Of a DNA stretch of 61,165 nt, positions 2-61,145 are shown piece after piece. The translations under genes and the position numbers were made by a program. Below the pieces are notes generated by a model. It had not been told where the DNA came from and did no database searches. It worked only from the letters and a program-made list of their open reading frames with translations. Numbering within the stretch: position 1 is the first letter of the stretch; each line of letters begins with the position of its first letter. Location: the IMG/VR virus record IMGVR_UViG_3300042478_002789, positions 1-61,165 of that record; one strand, written 5' to 3'. Source of the stretch: a virus.

Positions 2-226
2 TCATGGCTTGGCCTCCAGCGCGGCGCGGGCTGCTGCCTCAATGTGCGGAGGAACATTGCTTCCACTCGCATGAGCGTGAATGTAGACCGCCAGCGGCCA
101 GCGCAGCACATCGACAAGGGCGCGGAGCCGGGTGATCTCCTGCGCCATCTTCATCTCCGCTGCGGTCGGTCCTGCGTATCGTGCACACAGGAAATCAACT
201 CCGAACTCCTTGTAGATGTCGCTCAT
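2..226 (-). CDS. Small array protein, paralogue of the 2699-2932 gene
   Basis: A 74-residue protein of unknown function. It begins MSDIYKEFGVD, has a short helical segment (EITRLRALVDVLRWP, residues about 30-45), a WPLAVYIHAH stretch and a C-terminal EAKP tail. About three quarters of its residues match the product of 2699-2932, and the DNA is also close, so the two arose by duplication. The start at 226 overlaps the stop of the upstream gene as ATGA and has AAGGAGG upstream. Its own stop (2-4) overlaps an ATG at 3-5 that begins another array gene running off the left edge of the window. Confidence 0.85.
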   Translation of the reverse strand: MSDIYKEFGVDFLCARYAGPTAAEMKMAQEITRLRALVDVLRWPLAVYIHAHASGSNVPPHIEAAARAALEAKP

Positions 227-432
227 GGCTTGGCCTCCTTAATGGCCGCGAAATATGCTGGACGCCAATCACCGTCCTGCGTGTTTTCCCATTCGGCGCC
301 GCACCTTTCGCAGCGTCTGACGGATCGTCTAGACACATACGTCGTGTTGTCTGGCAGGGGCATTGGCACATCAATGGTCATCCGCCGCGCCGTCTTGTGG
401 AGGCAGGAGAGGCAGAGCAATACTTTAGTCAT
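223..432 (-). CDS. Small array protein with zinc-ribbon cysteines
   Basis: A 69-residue protein beginning MTKVLLCLSC. Two Cys pairs, CLSC near residues 7-10 and CERC near 41-44, with nearby His residues suggest a zinc ribbon; no family is recognised. It ends IKEAKP, the embedded ribosome-binding site for the gene starting at 226. Its start overlaps the stop of the upstream gene (429-743). The function is unknown; a small regulator or host-takeover factor would fit the setting, but that is inference. Confidence 0.8.
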   Translation of the reverse strand: MTKVLLCLSCLHKTARRMTIDVPMPLPDNTTYVSRRSVRRCERCGAEWENTQDGDWRPAYFAAIKEAKP

Positions 433-743
433 GGCGCAGCATCTTCAAGCGCGTAGGTCGCTGTTTTCTGATGGTTATAGCAGTTAGTGCATTGAGCCGC
501 CACGCTAGGGTGTGGCGTGGCTTGAATCCGTCGAAGCGCCCTTTCCAGCACCTCGACGCGGGCGCGCAGCCTCTCAACCTCAGCAGCGGCAATTGCAGCC
601 TCTGCTTTCTCCCGCTGGGCTTCCCACAACTTGTATTCCACGCCTTTGGGAATTCGGTGACCAAAACCTATGCTGGTCTTGTCGGGGTCTATTCCCTCTG
701 CAACGCAGAGTGCGCGTGCGACTGCTTCAACAATGTCGCTCAT
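429..743 (-). CDS. Small array protein with coiled-coil segment
   Basis: A 104-residue unknown starting MSDIVEAVARALCVAEG. The N-terminal 25 residues resemble a general phage small-protein opening. Residues about 45-70 are a charged helix with the array's common EVERLRARVEVLERAL coiled coil, followed by a CTNCYNH Cys/His pair. The MSD start at 743, with the cassette SD upstream, is chosen over an in-frame Met 27 bases further up. It ends EDAAP instead of EAKP, so the downstream cassette has diverged here. Confidence 0.82.
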   Translation of the reverse strand: MSDIVEAVARALCVAEGIDPDKTSIGFGHRIPKGVEYKLWEAQREKAEAAIAAAEVERLRARVEVLERALRRIQATPHPSVAAQCTNCYNHQKTATYALEDAAP

Positions 744-985
744 GGCTTGGCCTCCTCCTTGAACGCGCATCTGTCCACGCCATCCTTTTCCCTGCGATTG
801 ATCTGCCCACCGTTAGGCACAAATGGGGTCAAAATCGGCAAGAAGAATGCTGCGGGAAGCCGCAGGTCCATCTGGTTCTCTTTGAAGTACCGGCAGAGTC
901 CATCACCACTTGGATGCAGCCTGCCGTTCTTCGTGCGCTCCCACTCCGCGTAGATGCAGCCGACGCAAGTTGATGGCTCGCTCAT
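740..985 (-). CDS. Small Cys-containing array protein
   Basis: An 81-residue unknown starting MSEPSTCVGCIYAEWERT. It has CVGC at residues 7-10, a third Cys in GLCRYF near residue 31 and a fourth near the C-terminus, suggesting metal binding. The body is hydrophobic around LPAAFFLPILTPF, and the tail is FKEEAKP. Stop and start overlap both neighbours as ATGA. No family recognised. Confidence 0.8.
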   Translation of the reverse strand: MSEPSTCVGCIYAEWERTKNGRLHPSGDGLCRYFKENQMDLRLPAAFFLPILTPFVPNGGQINRREKDGVDRCAFKEEAKP

Positions 986-1218
986 GGCTTGGCCTCCTTG
1001 TCGAGCCGAGCGATGAGCGCGTCGGCGAACATGACCGCGTCATACGCGCATCCATTGAAGGTTCCGCTTGAGCCGTCGTAGCTAGAGTTCGCGAGCTGCC
1101 CCGCGAGACACGCAGTCGCGATGCGCTCGCGTCGGTCGGCGCGGAGGCGCTCGATCTCGGCTCGCATCAACGCGATCTGCCGCCCCGCGATATCATATGC
1201 CTTCTGATTGTCGCTCAT
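982..1218 (-). CDS. Small array protein, short coiled coil
   Basis: A 78-residue unknown starting MSDNQKAYDIAGRQIALMRAEIERLRADRRERI. The N-terminal half is predicted helical and contains the array's EIERLRA motif. The C-terminal half (GCAYDAVMFADALIARLDKEAKP) ends in the shared tail. Coupled to both neighbours by ATGA overlaps. Confidence 0.82.
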   Translation of the reverse strand: MSDNQKAYDIAGRQIALMRAEIERLRADRRERIATACLAGQLANSSYDGSSGTFNGCAYDAVMFADALIARLDKEAKP

Positions 1219-1442
1219 GGCTTGGCCTCCTTCAGCTTGGCGTGTATTGGGGTTGCGTTGAGTAACCGACCGCTGGCTGGATGGATGCGGTCGTTCAACG
1301 CTCCAACGAGTTCTTCAGGTGGGCGCGGCAACCTGACATCCCTCTCCAGCACCTCGATGCGGGCGCGGAGGCGCTGGTTGTCGGCATTAAGCTCGCACAC
1401 TTCGCGAGATAGCTTCTCTATGATTTCGTAAACGTCGCTCAT
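1215..1442 (-). CDS. Small array protein, coiled coil
   Basis: A 75-residue unknown. It opens MSDVYEIIEKLSREVCELNADNQRLRARIEVLERDV, a nearly continuous heptad-like helix, then a Pro-rich turn (LPRPPEELVG) and the KEAKP tail. The DNA for the RLRARIEVLE segment (about 1338-1375) closely matches that of other array genes. Function unknown; homo- or hetero-oligomerisation through the coiled coil is an inference. Confidence 0.83.
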   Translation of the reverse strand: MSDVYEIIEKLSREVCELNADNQRLRARIEVLERDVRLPRPPEELVGALNDRIHPASGRLLNATPIHAKLKEAKP

Positions 1443-1630
1443 GGCTTGGCCTCCTCTCGTGTAACGACCAGCTTGATGGTCGGGCGTTTCTCGCGATTTA
1501 GAACCGCATAGCCGGTGATGTGGCCGGTCTTCGCGCGATTGCCATGGGGAAAAACCACGCTGACGGTTGAGTCGGAGCCGTGATCCTTTATCAGAGAGGT
1601 GATCAAGGCTCGCAATTGACCAAGTTTCAC
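1439..1630 (-). CDS. Small array protein with GTG start
   Basis: A 63-residue unknown with no coiled coil; it reads as a small beta-rich protein (STVSVVFPHGNRAKTGHITGYAVLN) and ends REEAKP. It is the only array member whose cassette uses GTG: the usual CCATGA is CCGTGA, so the overlap is GTGA. The SD AAGGAGG is unchanged. Function unknown. Confidence 0.82.
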   Translation of the reverse strand: MKLGQLRALITSLIKDHGSDSTVSVVFPHGNRAKTGHITGYAVLNREKRPTIKLVVTREEAKP

Positions 1631-1914
1631 GGCTTGGCCTCCTTCAGCGCGGCGCGCAGATTCTCCTCCAAATGCTCCCAGCCCTTTCCGGCTGGGTCAT
1701 AGGTATCGGCATTCTCGTAGTCGATGAGTGCCTGTGCTGCTGCGCGTATGGTCTCCAACTCCTCCACGCGGGCGCGGAGGCGGGTGATCTCGTTCAGCAG
1801 AAACGCACGGTCTTCATGCGATTTCGGGCAGATCAGCGACGGGCCGTAGCGCCACCGCTCACCTAGTTCGTGCCTCTCGCGTATCTCGGCTAGCTTCTTG
1901 TCAACGTCGCTCAT
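1627..1914 (-). CDS. Small array protein, coiled coil, similar to the 60954 gene
   Basis: A 95-residue unknown starting MSDVDKKLAEIRERHELGERWRYG. Residues about 41-60 hold NEITRLRARVEELETIRAAA, close to EITRLRARVEVLERIRAAA in the product of 60954-61145, and both end A-A-L-K-E-A-K-P. The two proteins thus share a C-terminal module, while the N-terminal part here is unique. This is one of the clearest signs that array genes are built from exchangeable segments. Confidence 0.84.
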   Translation of the reverse strand: MSDVDKKLAEIRERHELGERWRYGPSLICPKSHEDRAFLLNEITRLRARVEELETIRAAAQALIDYENADTYDPAGKGWEHLEENLRAALKEAKP

Positions 1915-2129
1915 GGCTTGACCTCCTCGTGTAAGACATACTCGTCGGAGACCCAGGCTTCCTCAACCCAAATCCCGTCGAATTTCTTGTTATACTTGTT
2001 ATCCTCAATTTCTTTTGCGCAGGACTCTGCCATCTCCCTATCAGCAAAGACCCTGTAAACATACGTCCGGGTTCTTCCTTCAGAGTAATCGCCTTCAACG
2101 AGAACTATCCAGACGACGTTCTTGGTCAT
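1911..2129 (-). CDS. Small array protein, tail variant EEVKP
   Basis: A 72-residue unknown starting MTKNVVWIVLVEGDYSEGRTRTYVYRVFADREMAESCAKEIEDNK. It looks like a compact alpha/beta fold. It ends HEEVKP because one base of the cassette changed (GAGGTCAAGCC), which leaves the SD GAGGT intact. Its start at 2129 lies in a cassette that is not coding for the gene upstream, which already stopped at 2157. Confidence 0.82.
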   Translation of the reverse strand: MTKNVVWIVLVEGDYSEGRTRTYVYRVFADREMAESCAKEIEDNKYNKKFDGIWVEEAWVSDEYVLHEEVKP

Positions 2130-2156
2130 GGCTTGGCCTCCTTCAGGGCGCGACCG

Positions 2157-2702
2157 CTACTCGCAAGAGTAGATCTGTTCCGACCGCCGCAGCGGCAGCC
2201 ATCGCGGCACGGTCGTGAATGACTTGTCGCGGAACAGGACGCGGTTGGTCGGCTGGATGGTCAGGCGACCGCCATCGGTTCGCAAGAACATGAACTCCTT
2301 TGCCTGAGCCGGCGCGTGTGTGTAGGCGTCTCCTACCGGGATGGCCGTGAACAGGTATTCCGCGCCCAGCTCGGCGTCTGCCGCGCGCACAATCGCGCCG
2401 AGCCCGTCGAGGTAGTCGTAGGTGTGCAGGGAGAACTGCGAGTTGTAGCAGTCCCATTCCTGCGCGTCCTTGATCGTCCACGGATCGGGGTCGCTGCAGA
2501 ACGCCAGCGCGTGAGGCGGAAGGTCTCGGTAGACCGCGCCGCACTCAAGCAGCACCGTGCAGCCCCATGCTCGACCAGGATGGCTGTGCAGGCCGAACCA
2601 GACCGCAGGTAACCATTCGTCGGCGCCGAAGCCGATGAAGGCACCGCAGACCGAAACGTATTGATGGCGTGGCAGGCTGCCGCTGGCGGTGAAGAGCGTC
2701 AT
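2157..2702 (-). CDS. Hypothetical protein, largest member of the array
   Basis: A 181-residue unknown starting MTLFTASGSLPRHQYVSVCGAFIGFGADEWLPAVWFGLHS. It has several Trp and Cys residues and a regular alpha/beta pattern, with no recognised family. The start overlaps the stop of the neighbour at 2699 as ATGA with GGAGG upstream. It stops at 2157, leaving 27 non-coding bases that still contain a full cassette before the next start. Another frame through those bases reads ALKEAKP-stop, so an ancestral tail has been left out of frame. Confidence 0.82.
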   Translation of the reverse strand: MTLFTASGSLPRHQYVSVCGAFIGFGADEWLPAVWFGLHSHPGRAWGCTVLLECGAVYRDLPPHALAFCSDPDPWTIKDAQEWDCYNSQFSLHTYDYLDGLGAIVRAADAELGAEYLFTAIPVGDAYTHAPAQAKEFMFLRTDGGRLTIQPTNRVLFRDKSFTTVPRWLPLRRSEQIYSCE

Positions 2703-2932
2703 GGCTTGGCCTCCAGCGCGGCGCGGGCTGCTGCCTCAATGTGCGGCGGCACGGAATTGCCTGTCTGGTGCGCGTGGATGTAGACCGCCAGCGGCCAGCG
2801 CAGCGAATCGACGCGGGCGCGGAGGCGCTCGATCTCCTGCGCCATCTTCATCTCCGCTGCGGTGGGGCCTTCGTTCTCGCTGCAACAGTCGCGGAGAACA
2901 TCGACCCCGAACTCCTTGTAGATGTCGCTCAT
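2699..2932 (-). CDS. Small array protein, paralogue of the 2-226 gene
   Basis: A 77-residue unknown starting MSDIYKEFGVDVLRDCCSEN. It carries the EIERLRARVDSLRWPLAVYIHAH block and the identical VPPHIEAAARAALEAKP end seen in the 2-226 product, differing by a three-residue insertion and scattered substitutions. The MSD start at 2932 is preferred over an upstream in-frame Met because it sits at the cassette and overlaps the stop of the preceding gene. Confidence 0.85.
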   Translation of the reverse strand: MSDIYKEFGVDVLRDCCSENEGPTAAEMKMAQEIERLRARVDSLRWPLAVYIHAHQTGNSVPPHIEAAARAALEAKP

Positions 2933-3183
2933 GGCTTGGCCTCCTTGTTCAGAACTTTGTCGATACGAGCCATCATTGTTGCTTGCTCCACGACTCCGCG
3001 CTCTGTCATTGGTCTCCAGTAGATGAGACCGTTGTGACGAGCGTCGATCAATGCATCCGTCAACTCCATGACGCGAAAGCGGAGGCAAAGAATCTCCTCC
3101 GCTGCGTCGGCAATGATGTGAGCATCCTCCTCGCTGTACATGCGGGCTGCTTGAGCGCAGTCCATTAGGGTTCTATTGCTCAT
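2929..3183 (-). CDS. Small array protein, helical
   Basis: An 84-residue unknown starting MSNRTLMDCAQAARMYSEEDAHIIADAAEEILCLRFRVMELTDALIDAR. It is strongly helical, with a diverged LRFRVMELTDAL segment in the place of the array coiled coil, and ends KEAKP. The cassette upstream of its start at 3183 (GAGGATGGGCCATGAG) is diverged, so the exact repeat ends about here. Confidence 0.8.
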   Translation of the reverse strand: MSNRTLMDCAQAARMYSEEDAHIIADAAEEILCLRFRVMELTDALIDARHNGLIYWRPMTERGVVEQATMMARIDKVLNKEAKP

Positions 3184-3392
3184 GGCCCATCCTCCTCGCG
3201 CATGGCCCGCACCACTTCTAGGAGATCCTCTTTGTTGGCCACGCCAAACGAGAGCATGCGCTCCAGGTCCACGGAGTGGGCAAGCATCTTCTCGTTGTGG
3301 GCGCGGATGCGGATGATATCGTCGATGGCGTCATCGATATATTCGATCCTCATCTTCCGCATGGCTTGTAGCGTTCGGAATGTTCTGGTCAT
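3180..3392 (-). CDS. Small helical protein next to the array
   Basis: A 70-residue unknown starting MTRTFRTLQAMRKMRIEYIDDAIDDIIRIRAHNEKMLAHSVDLERML. Almost all of it is predicted helix. It ends REEDGP rather than EAKP but still carries GAGGA before the next start, so coupling is kept while the tail sequence differs. ATGA overlaps join it to both neighbours. Confidence 0.78.
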   Translation of the reverse strand: MTRTFRTLQAMRKMRIEYIDDAIDDIIRIRAHNEKMLAHSVDLERMLSFGVANKEDLLEVVRAMREEDGP

Positions 3393-3673
3393 AGGCCGGC
3401 CTCCTCCTTGATGCGGTTGACGACTGGCCAGAGTTCCTCGTGGACGAGGTCGTGGATGATGTCCTCGGGGGACTTGTCATCGGCGAGGTGGAGTACCATC
3501 CGTTCCTGTGCCTCGTCAAGGATGGCTTCGCGCAGCGTCACCATGATGGCAAGGATCTCCTTCTTGGCTTTGGCCTGGGCCTTCTCGATGCGCTCGTAGC
3601 AATGGAGGGCGGAGCATTGCTCGCGGTGTGCGTCGGTCTCCCGACAGTACTGCTCGTAGCTATACTGGTTCAT
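3389..3673 (-). CDS. Hypothetical protein, coupled small gene
   Basis: A 94-residue unknown starting MNQYSYEQYCRETDAHREQCSALHCYERIEKAQAKAKKEILAIMV. It is helical and acidic in its second half and ends IKEEAGL; the last codons again hold AAGGAGG upstream of the next ATG. The start at 3673 is taken because AAGGAGG lies just upstream inside the preceding gene; a longer reading extending to 3826 would run through the gene at 3660-3839. Confidence 0.8.
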   Translation of the reverse strand: MNQYSYEQYCRETDAHREQCSALHCYERIEKAQAKAKKEILAIMVTLREAILDEAQERMVLHLADDKSPEDIIHDLVHEELWPVVNRIKEEAGL

Positions 3674-12685: not shown

Positions 12686-12989
12686 CTGTTTGGGGTGGGT
12701 GGGAATGGGGGTTGGGGGTTGCTAGCCGGGAATTGTGAGGGATTTCAATGGGTTAGATGTTGCTAATTGTTGCTAGATTGTGGGGATAATTGTAATTTTA
12801 TTATAATGGGGCGGGGAATATAATGGGAGGATTATGCTGGGGATATTGAAATTTTCTTGCGAGATATGTAATAAAAGATTCACGAAAGATTCACGCCATT
12901 GAAATTCGGGCTGTGCTGTAATGGCTTCCGTCGACTTTTATTCCAGTCGGAATATAAGGGATGACATTATAAGAGAAGGAAAACAGATT

Positions 12990-13280
12990 ATGTCCAAGAT
13001 GCAAATCGTGATCGACCTCGATAATCTGAATATTTCGGCCTGCGGCAATTATTATAATATGCCGATCAGCATCGCCGAGGATAAGATAAGGCTTATCGGC
13101 ATTAATAAGGATGCCTCGGCCTTCATTAACAAGGGGCGGATCATTATCCGCAAGGGGGCCAAGGCCGCCGCCGCGAAGGCCGATAATAACACGGCGCGGA
13201 TCGATAATATCGAAAAGGCGCTAGGCTCGATTATCGAATTGCTGGCTTCCCAAAATAAGGCCAAGGCCAAGGCCAAGTAA
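12990..13280 (+). CDS. Hypothetical basic-tailed protein, isolated gene
   Basis: A 96-residue protein starting MSKMQIVIDLDNLNISACGNYYNMPISIAEDKIRLIGINKDASAF. It appears beta-rich in the N-terminal half, then an Ala/Lys linker, a short helix (ARIDNIEKALGSIIELLASQ) and the tail NKAKAKAK. The basic tail suggests nucleic-acid or membrane binding. GAAGGA lies 10 bases upstream. The codon choice is AT-leaning (ATT, ATA, AAT) and unlike the rest of the genome, which with its own terminator suggests an independently acquired unit. Confidence 0.75.
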   Translation: MSKMQIVIDLDNLNISACGNYYNMPISIAEDKIRLIGINKDASAFINKGRIIIRKGAKAAAAKADNNTARIDNIEKALGSIIELLASQNKAKAKAK

Positions 13281-13304
13281 CATAACATAATCAATTAAAT
13301 AATT

Positions 13305-13340
13305 GGGGTCGGGATATAATGTCCCGGCCCCTTTTATTTT
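13305..13340 (+). terminator. Rho-independent terminator
   Basis: GGGGTCGGGA (13305-13314) pairs with TCCCGGCCCC (13322-13331) over a 7-base loop, with one G-U pair, and is followed directly by TTTTATTTT. It lies 24 bases after the stop of the 12990-13280 gene and would end its transcript. Confidence 0.85.
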
Positions 13341-13344
13341 GTCC

Positions 13345-13455
13345 CGAATATATAATATCAGATAATATAATATAATATAATATAATCACATAATATAATA
13401 TCATATAATATTATGGTATTATATTATGTGATTTTTTTTGTGCTTTTTTTTTTGT
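13345..13455 (+). other. AT-rich block with 16-bp perfect inverted repeat
   Basis: About 110 bases composed almost only of A and T, dominated by TAATA repeats, in an otherwise GC-rich genome. ATCACATAATATAATA (13385-13400) is the exact reverse complement of 13417-13432, with a smaller ATAATATTAT palindrome in the loop. A T-run (13432-13439) and a second T-run follow. It can be a strong bidirectional terminator, a DNA-unwinding element, or both. No gene is seen from 13281 to 13640. Confidence 0.7.
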
Positions 13456-54274: not shown

Positions 54275-54398
54275 AGACGGTACCTTCCTTTTCGACCCAG
54301 ACCTTGACTTCGTGGCCGCGCTTCCTCCAGTACGCCCGGATGGAAGAGGCTAGCCGCTCACTGTGGAATTTGCTGCCGAGGTAGTCAGGCCAGTCCAT
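54210..54398 (-). CDS. Hypothetical protein, 62 residues
   Basis: Starts MDWPDYLGSKFHSERLASSIRAYWRKRGHEVKVWVEKEGTVYVIRSTLQF. The alpha/beta pattern RASSIRAYWRKRGHxVxVWVExxxxxYVIRS is common in small phage proteins. Overlaps the polymerase stop by 14 bases and the TSCPD gene start by 65. Its frame is supported by this conserved pattern. Confidence 0.7.
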   Translation of the reverse strand: MDWPDYLGSKFHSERLASSIRAYWRKRGHEVKVWVEKEGTVYVIRSTLQFTFPFAQPARKHR

Positions 54399-56655
54399 CC
54401 GGGTTGTCCTTCTTGCGCTTGCCCCAGTTCATCCCTGTTTGGGATTCCCACGGGATCGTCATCTCCCGAATGTTACCCCATATGTCCTTTACCTGCAAGG
54501 GAAATGTCAGCGCCTCCACGATGCGGGGCACCAGGGTGTCCTTGAGGTGCAGGGGGATCTGGCCGAAGGCAGCATCGTGGATGTTGTTGAGGATCTGCAC
54601 CTCCGGGAGGGTTTGGCGGATGGCGAGGAGGCCCCGCGCGGTCATGTCCCCCACGGTACTCTGGGGCACGTAGGCGATGGCCGCCCTTATGGTGGTGTCG
54701 TCGCGGGGGTTCTCCCAGAAGTTGCGCCGCCGACCAAAGGGGGTGACTAGGTGGCGCTCCGTCTGCACCTGCTGGGCCACCCAGACCTGCCACTTCTTGA
54801 GGTTGGGGAAGGTGCGGAAGTACTTGGATTGGAACTCCTCGATGAGCTTGGTCTCCACCTTGAGGACGCGCGCGATGGTGTAGGCGCTGCCCCCGTAATT
54901 GCTGTTGCCAGTGACCATGATCTTGTTGTTGCGCCGCACCAGGAAGTAGGAGGTGGGCACGGTGAGGCAGTGCACTGGCGTCCCCTCAGTGGGGATCTTG
55001 GTGACCTTCAGGTGGGACGCGCGACTCAAGGTGCGCCGGTTGAGATTGGCCTTGTGGACGATGCTGCCAAAGCCACTGAGGGTGGTTCCCTGGTAGGTGG
55101 TTCCCTTCCCGCACAGGGCGGCGATGGTCTGGTACCAATCGATGGTTTCCTTGCGGACGCTATGGAAGCTGACATGGGTCTTGCCCACGTGGGAGTCCCA
55201 GTGGCGGGTCTCATCGAGCCATGCCTCAAGGGCTGCACGGGACCACCCCAAGAGGTAGGGGCCGGGCAGCTTGAAGCCATCGGGGTTGAATACCTTGCGG
55301 GAGATGGTGCAGGACTTTGCGCCCTTGCTATCCGTCACCCAGTTTTGGGGGCCGAAGAGGAAGTCAACCCGCTTGATCTTGCGCGGCTTCTTGAGGTGGA
55401 AGCGGAGGTTGCCCGAGGTGCTGCTGCCATCGGCTTGCAGGGCGGCAATGCGCCTTGCCTCAAGGGGGGTGACGGTCTGCTGGCCCCCGACATAGTGGCC
55501 GACCACGGGCAGGCGAGCAGAGGAAGGGAGGGCTTCGGCTGGTGCCACCTTGAACTTGTTGTCGGTGGTGTAGGGCATCCGGTGATCGTGGGTGGCAAGG
55601 AGGGAATAGGCCGTGCCCTCGAACTGATGGAGGGTTCCCTCGTAGAGGAAGCTGGTCACCCCCAAGGTGGGCTGGAAGGAGATGGATCCATCGGTGTCCC
55701 AGCAGGCGACGCGCATCCCCACATTGATGGTGTTGATGGGTTGCCACCCAGAGGGGGTCAGGACCTCGTGGTCGGAGGTGAGGCACCCATGGGCCGCCCT
55801 CTTGGCAATGTCGCGGTAGGACATCTCGCGGTAATATTTGCGGTCGGCCAACTCACGGCGGGGCTCGAAGCCGAAGACCATGGCGGCCACCATCGTGTGT
55901 ACGTCCCCCGACTCGATGGCCTTGATGTAGTTCTCGTCCCCCGCCACGTAACCGACGACGCGAGCCTCTGCCCCCTGCTGGTCGCAGTTGAAGAAGATGT
56001 GGCCGGGGTCGGGGATGAAGATGCGGCGGATGTAGTCGTCGATGTTCTGGAGGTTGGAGCCCATCCCAAAGGGATGCTCGCTGCTGGACCAGCGCCCGGT
56101 GTCGGTGCCGGCGATGTTGAAGTTTGCATGCCAGCGCCCCGAGGGAGAGAGCTTCTTGGTGAGGGTCTCCACCGTCTTTTCGAGGTCGCGCATCTTCAGG
56201 AGGTGGGAGGTGACGGGCATGGCCCGCGAGTACTCCCGGTGCAGGCGCTCCAAGGCGTCGCGGTCGGTGGATACTTTCTTCTCGCCCTTCTTGGAAACGA
56301 TAACCTGGGGGAGGAAGAGGCGGGTATAGAGGAGATCTTGTAGCTGCAGGTAGCTGCGGGGATTGAAGGTCTTGCCCCACACCCCGGTGCAGAGGGCGTC
56401 GAAGTTCTGCTCGATGCGATCAAGGCGACCCTGGAGGTGGGCCACCATGCCGTCGCGCTTCTCGGTGTCGACGAGGATGCCCCGCTCCATCATTTCGAGG
56501 ACGAGGGGGAGGAGGGAGCGCTCGAACTCGTAGGTGGGGGAGTGGGGCAGGGCGGCATCGACCTCCATGGTCATTAGGCCGTCGAGCCCATTATAGACCA
56601 TTTGCTGGAGGGCAAGGTCCATTGAGGGCAGGTTGTCCGTCTCGATGATACGCAA
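54385..56655 (-). CDS. polA: Family A DNA polymerase with intein (polymerase half)
   Basis: About 756 residues, containing an intein. Motif A is CDQQGAEARVVGYVAGDE, motif B RDIAKRAAHG / SNYGG (R-x3-K-x6-YG), split by the intein, and motif C IHDAAFGQ (HD, with the usual Glu changed to Ala). The first residues contain VYNGLDGLMT, the exonuclease III motif (YxxxD) whose partner motifs I and II lie in the separate 57127-58098 product. A TTG at 56655 with TTGGAG upstream is the best start; an ATG at 56622 is an alternative, and an ATG at 56715 would overlap the upstream gene more. Resembles the polymerase half of SPO1-type UDG-exonuclease-polymerase proteins. Confidence 0.85.
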   Translation of the reverse strand: MRIIETDNLPSMDLALQQMVYNGLDGLMTMEVDAALPHSPTYEFERSLLPLVLEMMERGILVDTEKRDGMVAHLQGRLDRIEQNFDALCTGVWGKTFNPRSYLQLQDLLYTRLFLPQVIVSKKGEKKVSTDRDALERLHREYSRAMPVTSHLLKMRDLEKTVETLTKKLSPSGRWHANFNIAGTDTGRWSSSEHPFGMGSNLQNIDDYIRRIFIPDPGHIFFNCDQQGAEARVVGYVAGDENYIKAIESGDVHTMVAAMVFGFEPRRELADRKYYREMSYRDIAKRAAHGCLTSDHEVLTPSGWQPINTINVGMRVACWDTDGSISFQPTLGVTSFLYEGTLHQFEGTAYSLLATHDHRMPYTTDNKFKVAPAEALPSSARLPVVGHYVGGQQTVTPLEARRIAALQADGSSTSGNLRFHLKKPRKIKRVDFLFGPQNWVTDSKGAKSCTISRKVFNPDGFKLPGPYLLGWSRAALEAWLDETRHWDSHVGKTHVSFHSVRKETIDWYQTIAALCGKGTTYQGTTLSGFGSIVHKANLNRRTLSRASHLKVTKIPTEGTPVHCLTVPTSYFLVRRNNKIMVTGNSNYGGSAYTIARVLKVETKLIEEFQSKYFRTFPNLKKWQVWVAQQVQTERHLVTPFGRRRNFWENPRDDTTIRAAIAYVPQSTVGDMTARGLLAIRQTLPEVQILNNIHDAAFGQIPLHLKDTLVPRIVEALTFPLQVKDIWGNIREMTIPWESQTGMNWGKRKKDNPDGLA
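54904..55785 (-). mobile_element. Intein with degenerate LAGLIDADG endonuclease in polA
   Basis: About 294 residues from Cys (codon 55783-55785) to Asn (codon 54904-54906), next residue Ser. Block A starts CLTSDHEVLTPSGW; block B is YSLLATHDHRMPYTT (TxxH); block F/G is VHCLTVPTSYFLVRRNNKIMVTGN/S. The endonuclease region shows EARRIAALQADGSS (first LAGLIDADG-like motif) and a poorer second one about LLGWSRAALEAWLDE. The penultimate residue is Gly rather than the usual His. It sits between Gly and Ser inside motif B, so removal restores HGSNYGG. Confidence 0.88.
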
Positions 56656-56815
56656 GGTCGAACTCCAATGCGTGTGAGAGTTGGATGAGGAGGGCGAGGG
56701 CGTGGCTGCGCGCAAGGGGAATGCGGGTGAGGTTGCCGTCCACCACCACGTTGGCCGTCATGCCCTCCGAGGTGGAGGTGACGAAGAGGAGGGACGACGG
56801 CTTGTACTCAATCAT
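56591..56815 (-). CDS. Small hypothetical protein between exo and pol
   Basis: A 74-residue protein starting MIEYKPSSLLFVTSTSEGMTANVVVDGNLTRIPLARSHALALLIQLSHALEFDLA. Alpha/beta pattern. Overlaps the polymerase coding region by 65 bases (TTG start) and its own start by 8 with the upstream gene. Real, judging from the pattern and coupling, but the extent of overlap with polA is uncertain. Confidence 0.65.
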   Translation of the reverse strand: MIEYKPSSLLFVTSTSEGMTANVVVDGNLTRIPLARSHALALLIQLSHALEFDLAYHRDGQPALNGPCPPANGL

Positions 56816-57134
56816 AGATGATCTTGCGGTTGATGGTGCGGCCCTCGTCCATCATGCGCTGGACGGCGCGGCGGAAGTAGTCGTAGTCGATTCCCAGGAT
56901 GGCGCACATCCCCTTTAGCTCGGTGGGCTTGGAGGAGAAGATGATGTCGCGGGCCGACTTGCGATCCCGTGGCTTGGCATTGGGGTTGGTGGCGTCGTCC
57001 ACGGCTTGCACGATGACGGCCAGCAACAGTTTCTTCTCGGGGGTGAGGGTCCGGTCGGTATCTTCGTGGGCAAGGTTGTACGCGAAGGAGTCGAAGTCTG
57101 GATGGAGGAGGGAGTTGACGCGCTGCTTACTCAT
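56808..57134 (-). CDS. Hypothetical protein between exonuclease and polymerase
   Basis: A 108-residue protein starting MSKQRVNSLLHPDFDSFAYNLAHEDTDRTLTPEKKLLLAVIVQAVDDATNPNAKPRDRKSARDIIFSSKPTELKGMCAILGIDYDYFRRAVQRMMDEGR. Helical, possibly a helix-turn-helix in ELKGMCAILGIDYDYFRRAVQ. It is not a homing endonuclease. It sits between the two halves of the replication polymerase with ATGA-type overlaps. DNA binding is a guess. Confidence 0.75.
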   Translation of the reverse strand: MSKQRVNSLLHPDFDSFAYNLAHEDTDRTLTPEKKLLLAVIVQAVDDATNPNAKPRDRKSARDIIFSSKPTELKGMCAILGIDYDYFRRAVQRMMDEGRTINRKIIYD

Positions 57135-58098
57135 CCTTCTTGTTCCTGTCCTTTACCTTTCCGACGCGCATCAGCTTCCATGATTTCTCGTTGCAGTAGA
57201 TGCTGCCCAGGAACCCGAGGGACTTGAGCCACTCGATCTCGTTGGAGTGGGACTTCAGCATCGTATCCTCTACGGGATATCGGATCTTCATACCCATCTC
57301 GATGAGATAGGTCAAGTCATACACGGCGTTGTGCGCCACTTTGCGCAGGGGGGAAGCCATCAGCTTCTGGACCCGCAGCCACATGGCCACTTCGGTTTCG
57401 AGATCCCAGAAGGATTCGGGGAACCAGATGGGCAGGACGTACACCTTGGTGGGCGAGGGGGCAAAGCAGATCATGGTGATCTGGCCCCGCGAGGTCTCGA
57501 TGTCGAAGGCGAACTGTCCCTCCTTGAAGATATCCGCAACCGCTGCATCCATGTCGGCCACGCTCTCCACGATGTGGATGCGTCGGCGGGGGAAGGTGCT
57601 GCGGGGCTTGAGGGATTCCTGCCACGCCTTGCGCATATCCATGGCCACCACGGGCAGGAGGCCCTGCTGCTTGACGATGGCGCGGGGGTTGTGCGTGGGG
57701 ATGACGCGGATGCCGTTGTCGTAGTAGAGGATGTTGCCCCGGTGGTCCGAGAGGTTCTCCCCCGTCAGGCACCACAAGGAGAAGTCACCCATGGCGAGGA
57801 TAAGGTTGTGGCCCTTGGCCACCTCGCGCGCCTTCTGGTAGTGGGGGAGATACTTGCCCTTGAGGATGCCGGCTTTGTGGCGCGGGTTGCCGGCGTCATC
57901 CAGGGGGCAATCCTTCTTCTTGTGGAAGAAGTTGTTGGGATTGCCGTAGGGGGCAAGGTCGGGGAAGACTGTATGGATTTCGTGGGGGCCGAGGTCGGCA
58001 TAGCGCGCGGCCATCTCGAAGAGGGCGGCGGGGTACCCGGAGAGGGGCTTGCCCTCCTTGAGATCCTGGATGCTGGGATAGTCGAGGAGGACAAGCAT
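57127..58098 (-). CDS. UDG-like/3'-5' exonuclease protein (exonuclease half of DNA polymerase)
   Basis: A 323-residue protein. N-terminal 170 residues resemble the uracil-DNA glycosylase-like domain of SPO1-type DNA polymerases (CPLDDAGNPRHKAGILKGKYLPHYQKAREVAKGHNLILAMGDFSLWCLTG, THNPRAI). Then the DnaQ-like exonuclease: motif I FDIETS (D199, E201), motif II VAHNAVYD (D261), and VEDTML with D278. It stops just before motif III, which lies in the polymerase gene. GGAGATACC precedes the ATG at 58098. The glycosylase active site is not obviously conserved. Confidence 0.83.
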   Translation of the reverse strand: MLVLLDYPSIQDLKEGKPLSGYPAALFEMAARYADLGPHEIHTVFPDLAPYGNPNNFFHKKKDCPLDDAGNPRHKAGILKGKYLPHYQKAREVAKGHNLILAMGDFSLWCLTGENLSDHRGNILYYDNGIRVIPTHNPRAIVKQQGLLPVVAMDMRKAWQESLKPRSTFPRRRIHIVESVADMDAAVADIFKEGQFAFDIETSRGQITMICFAPSPTKVYVLPIWFPESFWDLETEVAMWLRVQKLMASPLRKVAHNAVYDLTYLIEMGMKIRYPVEDTMLKSHSNEIEWLKSLGFLGSIYCNEKSWKLMRVGKVKDRNKKDE

Positions 58099-58335
58099 GG
58101 TATCTCCGGGGAATTGAGGTGGCGGTGGGCAGTACCCCCTAAACGCGAAGCTACGGTGTAAAGTACTGCCTTGCTGCTCTTGGACGCCGCCACTCGCCCT
58201 CAACTACACACCGCAGCTATGGTGGGAGAGGGGTGGTGGTGGAGACAGGTGCATCACGGCCCTGAGGTGCAGGGATGCGTGTGTCTCCTTGAGGGCGCCA
58301 CCACACGCCCTTCGGGGTAGCCTCAGGTACCCCGA
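58099..58335 (-). other. Non-coding stretch with several hairpins
   Basis: No convincing gene in 237 bases. Perfect pairings include GGCAGTAC (58128-58135) with GTACTGCC (58163-58170), GGGGTA with TACCCC (about 58308-58328, loop of 8), GGGCG with CGCCC, and GCGTGTG with CACACGC. There is no U-run after them. It separates the DUF669-like and exonuclease genes in an otherwise packed operon, so RNA-level regulation, an attenuator or processing site is plausible. Confidence 0.6.
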
Positions 58336-58734
58336 TTACGCCGCCGCGAAGTCCACGACGTTGGTGTAGTCCTTGCCGTTGGACCCCTTGGTGGTGGCGT
58401 ACACGATCACGGCTTCGAGGCCCACCATGTTCTCGAACTGCTCCTTCCACGCCACGCCGTCAGCGAGGGACGGATAGAGCTTCTTGAGGTTGCGCTTGGT
58501 GTACTTCTTGGCGGCGGGGGTGAAGTACATGCGGCCAGTGCGCAGCGGGCGGTTGAGTTCCACGCCGGTCATGTCCTGGCCGGAGAGGGCATCGCGCACC
58601 TTGAATTCGAGGACGACGTAGGGCTTGTCCTCGGCGGCGTCAATCTGGTAGCCCGAGACGTAGGCCAGGTACTTGCCCGGCGGGATGTCGCGGATGTCCT
58701 CGATGTCGCCGGGGGTCGTGTTCCAAAAGTCCAT
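58336..58734 (-). CDS. Single-stranded DNA-binding-like protein (DUF669-like)
   Basis: A 132-residue protein starting MDFWNTTPGDIEDIRDIPPGKYLAYVSGYQID, then YVVLEFKVRDALSGQDMTGVELNRPLRTGRMYFTPAAKKYTKRNLKKLY and VGLEAVIVYATTKGSNGKDYTNVVDF. The OB-fold-like beta pattern and position directly after a Sak4-like ATPase match DUF669-type proteins linked to recombination. AAGGAG precedes the ATG at 58734; the longer reading is rejected. Binds ssDNA by inference. Confidence 0.72.
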   Translation of the reverse strand: MDFWNTTPGDIEDIRDIPPGKYLAYVSGYQIDAAEDKPYVVLEFKVRDALSGQDMTGVELNRPLRTGRMYFTPAAKKYTKRNLKKLYPSLADGVAWKEQFENMVGLEAVIVYATTKGSNGKDYTNVVDFAAA

Positions 58735-58747
58735 TTTCGATTCTCCT

Positions 58748-59500
58748 TTACGATTCGATCTGCTTGAAGATGGCACCCAGATCGAATGGTGCCTCTGCCT
58801 GCACCCGGTGGGGTGCGCTGCATTTCAGGTAACCCATATCACGAGTGGTCTGCGTGTGCAAGACCGGCTTTCCATCTTTTCGCGAGGCGAGCCACACGTT
58901 GTTCATGTAGCGCGCGACGACGTTGGGAAGCTGCTGCCCCAAGAAGGAGGGGAAGGCGCGCATGAGACCGCCGGTCTTCTTGTTCTCGATGAGGCGGATG
59001 TGGGCGATGAGGATGAGGTGGAAGTTGTAGCGGTCGCTGGTGAGGCGCGCAACCTGGTTCTCGAAGCGCTTGTTCATCACGCCCCACATCGACTGGTCGA
59101 AGCCCGCCTTGTCGTCGGAGATGCCGTTCTCCTTGAGGACCTGCGACATGCAGGTATCGTTCCAGAAGGTGGCGCTGTCGACGACGAGCACGGTGTTGCT
59201 ATCCCACGTGGTGAGATCACCGAGGTCCTCCTCAGGAAGCTTCCACTGGGTGGTAAGGGCAATGGACTTCTTCCACGAGTCGGGGTCCTTGGCGGGGATG
59301 CTGTAGTAGGAGACGTTGCTACCCTTGCCCTCCTGCAGGTAGGCGTTGAGGATGGCGAGGTTGTTGTCGAGGTCGAGGATGCGGACCTTGTAGTCCTTGT
59401 TGGCCAAGGTGGCCATGAGTCCGGTCTTCCCTGCCCCGGGGTCACCTAGGAGGAGAAGCTTCACTCGCTTCTGGTTTGGGTGGTTGAGGAAGGATGGCAT
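58748..59500 (-). CDS. Sak4-like RecA-type ATPase
   Basis: A 250-residue protein. Walker A is GDPGAGKT in VKLLLLGDPGAGKTGLMATLANKDYKVRILDLD, Walker B is NTVLVVDSATF. The rest (WGVMNKRFENQVARLTSDRYNFHLILIAHIR; GQQLPNVVARYMNNVWL) fits AAA_24/Sak4 phage recombinases that anneal single strands. Likely partners are the DUF669-like SSB downstream and the PD-(D/E)XK exonuclease at 4424. The ATG at 59500 follows TTGGAG; a TTG at 59512 is also open. Confidence 0.85.
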   Translation of the reverse strand: MPSFLNHPNQKRVKLLLLGDPGAGKTGLMATLANKDYKVRILDLDNNLAILNAYLQEGKGSNVSYYSIPAKDPDSWKKSIALTTQWKLPEEDLGDLTTWDSNTVLVVDSATFWNDTCMSQVLKENGISDDKAGFDQSMWGVMNKRFENQVARLTSDRYNFHLILIAHIRLIENKKTGGLMRAFPSFLGQQLPNVVARYMNNVWLASRKDGKPVLHTQTTRDMGYLKCSAPHRVQAEAPFDLGAIFKQIES

Positions 59501-59670
59501 TTCTGGCTCCAATCTATTTCATAATCGTAGGCCCAAGAGGACGACCCATCCGGGAGGATGATGTCGTAGATGCTACCTAGCAGGTCGTAGCCGTGGGGGT
59601 CAACAACTTTTATGGGGGTCCCGGCGGGGTGCGGGCCGAGGGGGGTCTTCAGTTTGTAATCTGCTGCCAT
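59461..59670 (-). CDS. Small hypothetical protein
   Basis: A 69-residue protein starting MAADYKLKTPLGPHPAGTPIKVVDPHGYDLLGSIYDIILPDGSSSWAYDYEIDWSQ. An SH3-like beta pattern is plausible. Overlaps the Sak4-like start by 40 bases. The reading is supported by the position and fit to the packed operon. Confidence 0.68.
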   Translation of the reverse strand: MAADYKLKTPLGPHPAGTPIKVVDPHGYDLLGSIYDIILPDGSSSWAYDYEIDWSQKCHPSSTTQTRSE

Positions 59671-60688: not shown

Positions 60689-60957
60689 GTTACGTCCTTT
60701 CCTGCGAGGAGGTCGCGAGCCAGGGAGGGTGCATCCCAGAAGCCGTCACCCTCCACGATCTTCTGGAGACCGGCGCGGTAGCGGGCGATCTCATCTCGGA
60801 GGGCGTCGCCTTCAGCCAGTTCGCGATTTAGTCTTTCCAACTCCTCCACGCGGGCGCGGAGGCTATCAGTTAGAATTGTCGCAAGTCGAGCGCATTCCAA
60901 ATGCTCCTCTTTAAGCCTTCTATTCTCGATTCGCAGCTTGCTCACGATGTCGCTCAT
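60685..60957 (-). CDS. Small array protein, coiled coil
   Basis: A 90-residue protein starting MSDIVSKLRIENRRLKEEHLECARLATILTDSLRARVEELERLNRELAEGD. Nearly all is a coiled coil including the SLRARVEELERLN array segment. It ends LLAGKDVT rather than EAKP, so it is the last array member on this side. The start at 60957 has the full cassette upstream. Confidence 0.83.
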   Translation of the reverse strand: MSDIVSKLRIENRRLKEEHLECARLATILTDSLRARVEELERLNRELAEGDALRDEIARYRAGLQKIVEGDGFWDAPSLARDLLAGKDVT

Positions 60958-61145
60958 GGCTTGGCCTCCTTCAGGGCAGCGAGCAGGGCTTTGAATTTCT
61001 CTCCCCAATACCAACTGCGCTCGTAAGCGAAAAAATCGTCTGCTGCTGCGCGGATGCGCTCCAGCACCTCCACGCGGGCGCGGAGGCGGGTGATCTCCCT
61101 CGCTGCGTCCAATTGAATTTCTGGTGAATCATAATAAGAGTACAT
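60954..61145 (-). CDS. Small array protein, coiled coil
   Basis: A 63-residue protein starting MYSYYDSPEIQLDAAREITRLRARVEVLERIRAAADDFFAYERSWYWGEKFKALLAALKEAKP. It shares its EITRLRARVEVLERIRAAA and ALKEAKP blocks with the 1627-1914 product. No SD precedes its ATG in the remaining 20 bases of the window, so the true start or the upstream sequence may be missing at the window end. Confidence 0.78.
   Translation of the reverse strand: MYSYYDSPEIQLDAAREITRLRARVEVLERIRAAADDFFAYERSWYWGEKFKALLAALKEAKP

Follow-up and report, generated by a model that had tools for sequence, protein, structure and literature searches.

The DUF2815 and DUF2800 RNA motifs are structured RNAs of phage replication/recombination modules, and the target of gp32 on its mRNA is a pseudoknot. 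The gp32 proteins of T4 and RB69 repress translation of their own mRNAs, on which their targets have diverged (PMC535899). Flavivirus-type exoribonuclease-resistant RNAs (xrRNAs) adopt pseudoknot folds and may stand in tandem (PMC5760640). STAXI RNAs are pseudoknots in tandem, repeated at least twice and often carrying UUCG loops, that lie near genes whose products bind ssDNA or otherwise handle DNA (Weinberg et al. 2010, PMC2864571).

The window analysed here, i.e., the whole stretch of 61,165 nucleotides, comes from an IMG/VR virus record, and its gap at 58099–58335, read on the minus strand, holds two tandem copies, A and B, of one H-type pseudoknot RNA. STAXI is the closest known kind, with which the element shares the tandem arrangement (copy A being weak on score) and the vicinity of genes that bind or manipulate DNA. 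Unlike STAXI, here judged by its description, the element does not reach the covariance-model cut-off and is present as a single copy in the loci L045, L080, L170 and L223, and it was filed as what is apparently an undescribed family of that kind and not as STAXI itself. As in the T4/RB69 gene 32 operator, an RNA lies beside a translation start among replication genes, with a putative Ssb-like gene in the module; the RNA, however, follows the putative Ssb-like gene and precedes the next one instead of standing in its own leader, it is larger, and its partner is only putative. Pseudoknots may also stand in tandem in flavivirus xrRNAs, whose host is different and whose topology differs from that of the H-type element.

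No Rfam family was found at gathering score in the window or in the two sets of 9 and 12 loci scanned. The relaxed matches in the window gap, L045, L118 and L356 (MIR9677, mir-3138, MIR2629, GHRLOS and sR32) were below cut-off and taken as chance; the GHRLOS match, for instance, lies on the opposite strand (E 0.0072) with 19.5 bits versus a cut-off of 48. STAXI was absent from these same relaxed scans, and the DUF2815 and DUF2800 motifs from the Rfam scan listings. No published description of this pseudoknot RNA was found in a search that covered few subscription papers.

The genes around the gap are all on the minus strand, and the gap edges are exact, the stop of the DUF669-like ORF being at 58336 and the ATG of the exonuclease ORF at 58098:

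58748–59512, minus strand: Sak4-like ssDNA annealing ATPase gene, adjoining the DUF669-like gene upstream (phrog_124, E 1.2e-21; Pfam AAA_24, E 1.5e-13)
58336–58734, minus strand: upstream gene, DUF669-like, predicted OB-fold protein of 132 aa (Pfam DUF669, E 0.0012, just under cut-off)
58104–58107, minus strand: Shine-Dalgarno-like GGAG of the exonuclease gene
57127–58098, minus strand: downstream gene, encoding the 3'-5' exonuclease portion of a family-A DNA polymerase (phrog_17 DNA polymerase, E 2.4e-12; Pfam DNA_pol_A_exo1 under cut-off, E 0.0023)

Past the exonuclease, the operon continues with a small ORF and then the polymerase ORF. The latter (window 54385–56715, minus strand) has DNA_pol_A in two stretches, with phrog_32482 over residues 306–606, and looks split by an intein-like insert at residues ~306–606. 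The 237-base gap in a packed operon, as described in the earlier note, was recovered, filling 58099–58335 between two minus-strand ORFs. Its non-coding status was also confirmed: the exonuclease frame stays open upstream into the gap, with a TTG at 58203, yet in all 38 relatives the exonuclease matches start at an ATG or GTG at the position equivalent to 58098. Within 57950–58500 there is no GC hairpin followed by a U-run, as expected of an intrinsic terminator, and the number of terminator-like or sigma-70-like sites is 0; since no terminator-like site occurs there, the reported lack of a U-run stands.

Elsewhere in the window, a 23-nt repeat (TCATGGCTTGGCCTCC..) is present in 13 copies at 2–3411 and 60954–60976; its minus strand reads as an RBS plus ATG, and it may be a start-associated repeat. 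AT-rich repeats (ATAATATAATATA) were observed at 12949–13435, in otherwise GC-rich genes, and our guess is an origin region. In the phages collection no record with DNA similarity to the window was found; similarity to the exonuclease protein was retrieved in 32 records (25–29% identity among the 15 matches listed), and no protein similar to the DUF669-like proteins of the window and of L118 was present.

Each copy of the element is built from the core GGGYGWG-P1-CRYCC and three helices: P1 closes it, P2 lies inside, and alpha joins the upstream sequence to the P2 loop. From 5' to 3' the strands follow the order alpha, P1, P2, alpha', P2', P1', and the fold is therefore an H-type pseudoknot. 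Scores are given for R1, a model of P1 and P2 run on 82 sources (the window and 81 loci), and for a further model, R2; copy B of the window belongs to the training alignments of both. The parts of the gap are as follows:

58312–58335, minus strand: short hairpin directly past the stop codon, with the alpha 5' strand of copy A in its loop
58233–58327, minus strand: copy A (R2 match at 58231–58330, 18.5 bits; R1 16.5 bits, E 0.63)
58321–58327, minus strand: copy A, alpha 5' strand CCTGAGG (partner 58261–58267)
58293–58310, minus strand: copy A, core GGGCGTGTGGTGGCGCCC (P1 5' strand at 58298–58304)
58282–58288, minus strand: copy A, P2 5' strand GGAGACA (partner 58241–58247)
58261–58267, minus strand: copy A, alpha 3' strand CCTCAGG
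58233–58239, minus strand: copy A, 3' strand of P1, CCACCAC (the motif occurs twice with overlap; this is the second)
58117–58220, minus strand: copy B (R1 101.1 bits; R2 105.3 bits)
58207–58218, minus strand: copy B, alpha 5' strand (partner 58149–58160)
58182–58199, minus strand: copy B, core GGGCGAGTGGCGGCGTCC (P1 5' strand at 58187–58193)
58163–58170, minus strand: copy B, P2 5' strand GGCAGTAC, one side of the stem first reported
58149–58160, minus strand: copy B, alpha 3' strand, within the P2 loop
58128–58135, minus strand: copy B, P2 3' strand GTACTGCC, the other side of that stem
58119–58125, minus strand: copy B, 3' strand of P1, CCGCCAC, whose end is 20 nt ahead of the ATG

Copy A is weak on score, so its membership was judged by the shared core and the helix order. 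Its alpha helix does not exceed shuffles when taken alone (118 of 1000 shuffles of the upstream sequence reach the score), is swapped for TCCCCT/AGGGGA in L087, and was looked for and not found in L016. For the alpha helix of copy B, only 5 of 1000 upstream shuffles reach the score. An extra stem, P0, around the core amounts to just a few pairs in the window clade. TTCG was observed in unpaired parts of copy B (window 58149–58220, minus strand) and of L118 (3446–3611).

Taken alone, fold energy places the gap weakly above chance, with z −1.81 on the plus strand (10 of 200 shuffles as good) and z −1.73 on the minus strand (14 of 200); it is the comparative evidence, i.e., covariation, and not energy that sets the structure well above chance. 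In alignment A2 (12 rows, 11 of them distinct, from the window clade plus L045), 94.9% of the 275 cells of alpha, P1 and P2 are paired versus 83.9% after shuffling, 14 of 25 pairs show two-sided change versus 6.8, and cells with two-sided change number 33 versus 10.4, none of the 500 shuffles reaching any of these values. Further pair types gave a weaker result (28 versus 24.5, reached by 14 of 500 shuffles), as they did in another window-clade test (121 of 500) and in alignment A5 (171 of 500). Registers slid along A2 are 32–58% paired, with the caveat that a structure derived from the same sequences tends to beat slid registers for that alone, and that related sequences may exceed shuffles. 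In copy B, the alpha helix includes a run of 9 pairs that is 100% paired in A2, 7 of them with two-sided change, plus one more outer pair varying on one side only. P2 is shifted by one column for L011, L029 and L033 in A2 and A3, which lowered its score. For copy B, covariation shows all three helices, alpha, P1 and P2.

With the P2 register corrected in these three rows, the aligned helices read on the minus strand hold 16 G-U cells and 0 A-C cells, a count somewhat biased by helices having been chosen with G-U allowed and A-C not; this fits the folding of a minus-strand RNA. A hand-delimited count on the 'new clades' (G-U 5, A-C 2), in which L223 is misaligned, was not relied on. The plus-strand reading was rejected on account of the minus-strand flanking genes, with the G-U/A-C asymmetry favouring the minus strand. 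When tested against single-base shuffles of the upstream sequence, alpha is above them in 10 of 18 elements (0–10 per 1000) and not clearly so in the other eight, namely copy A of the window (L001A, 118 per 1000), L038A (407), L087A (113), L050 (439), L069 (40), L223 (295), L328 (85) and L333 (814).

The earlier note had pointed to a structured RNA with several hairpins, had proposed covariation analysis as a check and had named lack of conserved structure in relatives as the result that would contradict it. The analysis showed a structure conserved in relatives, with covariation, so that a structured RNA is strongly supported; its strand and shape needed correction. Indeed, the perfect 8-bp stem reported there (58128–58135/58163–58170) exists and is P2 of copy B, but the key helix is long-range and invisible as a hairpin.

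In the protein encoded just upstream, Pfam DUF669 at E 0.01 matches 4 of 9 clade members, and the window's own protein has no PHROG match; the DUF669 protein of L118 matches PHROG ssDNA-binding families (phrog_378, E 1.1e-8). Two DUF669-like alignments compared as profiles gave a weak match (probability 23%, 44 columns). The AlphaFold2 model of the DUF669-like protein (pLDDT 86, pTM 0.77) found PrgE of pCF10 as its best Foldseek match (E 3.9e-5); the Foldseek matches ranked behind PrgE, with E of 0.01 or more, include B subunits of AB5 toxins and further OB folds. Structural comparison with PrgE gave Z 10.6 and rmsd 4.4 over 115 aligned residues, and with a PrgE entry that is DNA-bound according to its title, Z 10.1 and rmsd 2.9 over 104. 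As a fold match, PrgE comes ahead of RadD, RPA, PriB and SSB chains. An OB fold like that of a solved DNA-binding protein is thus predicted, and the protein is probably ssDNA-binding, a shared fold in itself not showing function.

A scan with the exonuclease protein retrieved 38 loci, whose gaps as delimited are 67–604 nt long and in some cases hold extra ORFs (the L036 stretch includes its DUF669-like ORF). Copy B is present at E < 1e-6 (R1) in 23 of them; the remaining 15 keep the exonuclease and lack copy B, R1 matching none of them up to E 1. Run over 18 records, R2 matched 14 at E up to 0.1, the window record and those of L038, L016, L005 and L087 having two copies each and nine others one; at this threshold no match was obtained in the L366, L026, L019 and L036 records. 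L170, outside the training set, has an R1 match of 61.8 bits, and its alpha strands pair again over 11 nt (10 of 1000 shuffles reach the score).

The contents of the site vary, being A+B, C+B, C only, C with tRNA-Leu(CAA), a plain hairpin, or an extra ORF. By eye, a plain long hairpin takes the place of the pseudoknot in L019 and L023. Element C, recognised near GTCACCTGCCNAGTGGTGAGCGAGGGGGCGGCATCCCCCACC in the gaps of L009, L011, L015, L022, L029, L033 and L036, has two hairpins with a possible loop-loop contact TGCC/GGCA, and may be a short relative of the pseudoknot RNA. A tRNA-Leu(CAA) gene ending at the exonuclease start was seen in the same gap (L009:2511–2595; L010:2305–2389). A small ORF family, phrog_17693 (L170:2646–3017, E 1.9e-18), forms an insert that separates the exonuclease from the RNA or hairpin, and ORFs resembling the L170 one by eye occur in the L019 and L026 gaps. 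With respect to L038 the gap is 75% identical and the flanking genes 58% and 65%, and with respect to L016 82% versus 70% and 70%; between near-identical strains the gap reaches 91.6% versus 99% for the genes (L002) and 83.7% versus 97% and 99% (L003). These values fit an exchange of the RNA as a unit without proving it. As regards the regulation of the exonuclease and polymerase genes suggested in the earlier note, it is plausible for this RNA as a candidate, while 15 of the 38 relatives keep the exonuclease without having copy B. The element goes with the DUF669-like gene, which it follows, and not with the exonuclease, from which another gene separates it in L170.

IMG/VR was searched with exact core patterns, and a second core pattern gave a further set. 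Judged by eye, 32 of the 74 stretches from the first search are members and 42 are chance matches, and 32 of the 40 from the second are members and 8 chance (L412, L415, L424, L426, L431, L152, L158 and L147); membership is least certain for L146, L427 and L433, and many members are copies of one phage. Looser patterns yielded the L118 group and otherwise mostly chance matches. In the genome scan, which gave at least 120 loci, alpha was inspected in all 120 and R2 was run on 80, giving 32 matches up to E 2, headed by L223 with 37.6 bits, the next having 26.4. In the scan of Sak4 relatives (80 of 165 loci taken, 74 read, 3 with an empty stretch), the core was found in 5 of the 74. The P1 partner first assigned in L118, CCGCCAC, was replaced by CCACCAC after comparison with L333 and others, and the region of Caulobacter phage Kuura has no R2 match.

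Within the second-pattern set, the order alpha, core, P0 around the core, P2 and P1' (CCACCRC) is kept, with alpha being GTGGGGG/CCCCCAC, TGGCGGGG/TCCCGCCA, GTGAGGGG/TCCCTCAC or TGCGCGACT/AGTCGCGCA. In A5 (17 rows, including a misaligned one, L411), 99.7% of 329 cells are paired, and 5 pairs show two-sided change versus 2.3 after shuffling (1 of 500 shuffles reaches this). P0 is invariant in A5, so covariation there says nothing on it; between L050 and L069 its strands change together, CTTCGG/CCGAAG versus CCTCGG/CCGAGG.

The element follows a RecT-like gene in L045, SSB and Erf genes plus an ORF of 73 aa in L080, a Cas4-domain exonuclease gene plus a small ORF in L069 (L050 carries the same type), and the Sak4 and DUF669 genes in L118 and its kin. 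In L413 it is flanked on one side by a PD-(D/E)XK exonuclease gene accompanied by a small ORF, and on the other by an RNAP-alpha-CTD-like gene, then a helicase; the product of the gene directly past the element (L413:1420–1731) resembles the C-terminal domain of RNA polymerase alpha (Pfam E 8.1e-12). A helicase gene is downstream of the element in L416 and a Mom-like gene in L433, an HNH gene is ~460 nt upstream in L427, and in L223, from a Deltaproteobacteria MAG, the element follows a terminase gene and comes with a T-run. Given such varied neighbours, the link to ssDNA-handling genes is common and not universal. In the lineages read, the element is in sense orientation to the flanking gene. 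Its recurrence in unrelated phages, often beside ssDNA-handling genes, makes the pseudoknot RNA a real element.

Two other recurring segments were met. Motif M, a second pseudoknot, often tandem, occurs in L337–L398, mostly directly past the DUF669 gene (e.g., L356 from 4816, 4886, 4973 and 5113; L371 from 4545 and 4639); its hairpin loop TTCCCGTC (also TGCCCGTC or CGCCCACC) pairs with GGCGGGA (GACGGGA, GGTGGGA), and an upstream helix is added. By regular expression it was counted at 66 places, 38 of them distinct. No Rfam family matched it at cut-off in 12 loci, and the relaxed scan of L356 returned MIR2629 only. Segment N, the third recurring one, roughly GGGGTAYGRCCC..AGTAATRG.GGGYCTCAACCGGATGCTCGGAAC, lies past the element in L409, L414, L418, L422, L425, L435 and L437.

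The 3' end of P1 is located, by script, 13–28 nt before a start codon with a Shine-Dalgarno (SD)-like sequence in 11 of 22 elements and, by eye, 18–22 nt before a start codon in L016, L029, L038 and L413, where no SD was scored; the genes behind these start codons differ between elements. The spacing to a scored start is longer in L223 (71 nt) and L408 (57 nt), and none was scored within 130 nt in L409, L411, L414, L427 and L080, the last of which is truncated where its locus ends. Because of this position and of the orientation, we tentatively favour, at somewhat less than even confidence, the two tandem H-type pseudoknots in the minus-strand transcript being a cis-acting intercistronic mRNA element that controls the downstream cistron. 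The operon transcript would carry the tandem pseudoknots with their 3' edge ~20 nt before the next start codon, and the element would act in cis on translation or decay of that cistron. The likeliest partner would be the OB-fold protein from the adjoining upstream gene, whose role would then resemble that of T4 gp32 at its operator, and control through this protein is a guess by analogy. Against a cis operator, relatives lacking copy B and having instead a hairpin, C, tRNA-Leu or an ORF would be odd if the element were essential, the short spacing is explicable by the compactness of phage genomes alone, the gap changes faster than the genes in near-identical strains, and in L223 the element follows a terminase gene, comes with a T-run and is 71 nt away from the start scored next. 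The longer spacing in L408 and the lack of a scored start in L409, L411, L414 and L427 also count against it, as does alpha exceeding shuffles in no more than 10 of the 18 elements.

The same variability is what a trans-acting RNA cassette would lead one to expect, the site past the DUF669-like gene docking small RNA genes that would be cut from the transcript and act elsewhere, in host takeover, counter-defence or RNA scaffolding. Different RNA units occupy this one site in relatives, motif M occurs there in the Sak4 relatives of L118, often as tandem copies (L356 has as many as 4 places), M or N directly flanks the element in some loci, and the element may be present or absent between close relatives such as L328 and L334 (90% Sak4 identity). 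Unit swapping, the tRNA-Leu of L009/L010 and the motif M arrays therefore leave room for a trans role, which we nevertheless consider somewhat unlikely, as 15 of 22 elements lie at a short and fairly even distance from the start codon, a tandem pair directly ahead of an RBS resembles a leader, and no processing site was identified. A barrier to mRNA decay, in which the pseudoknot would halt a 5'-3' exonuclease such as RNase J or shield the 3' end of the upstream mRNA, is compatible with the tandem copies and with the plain long hairpin that substitutes for them by eye in L019 and L023, and the xrRNA of West Nile virus is described as halting bacterial RNase J1 (PMC5760640). The conserved core sequence beyond pairing, on the other hand, exceeds the needs of a plain barrier. 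The topology is also unlike that of xrRNAs, and we regard this explanation as unlikely.

Conserved core nucleotides outside the helices, tandem copies and a position like that of a 5' UTR could equally belong to a small-molecule riboswitch, with tandem aptamers for a replication-relevant metabolite; no Rfam riboswitch matched, however, and the contexts are mostly DNA-handling genes rather than metabolism, which makes it improbable. Slightly more improbable is a structure of the ssDNA serving replication or recombination, a role that the STAXI authors raised for STAXI (PMC2864571): the neighbours do handle ssDNA, but G-U is tolerated and A-C is not (16 versus 0), and in the lineages read the element has the same orientation as the flanking gene. 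That these are ordinary GC-rich hairpins without function would suit an energy near chance (z −1.7 to −1.8), but the covariation relative to shuffles and slid registers in A2 and A5 speaks strongly against it, leaving it extremely improbable.

The cis-acting intercistronic element thus being the favoured reading, a wider and rather doubtful proposal is that phages have a site beside ssDNA-binding/annealing genes at which pseudoknot RNAs (this family, M, C and N) swap like cassettes, singly or arrayed. If true, these RNAs would make up a broad and so far undescribed class in phages, sharing a role, in trans or in cis, in genome replication or host conflict. The element represents a covariation-supported RNA family, out of the reach of Rfam, in phages with differing recombination genes; it offers a concrete target for asking whether pseudoknot RNAs control phage replication modules beyond T4 gp32, and it makes the STAXI question testable in a second family.
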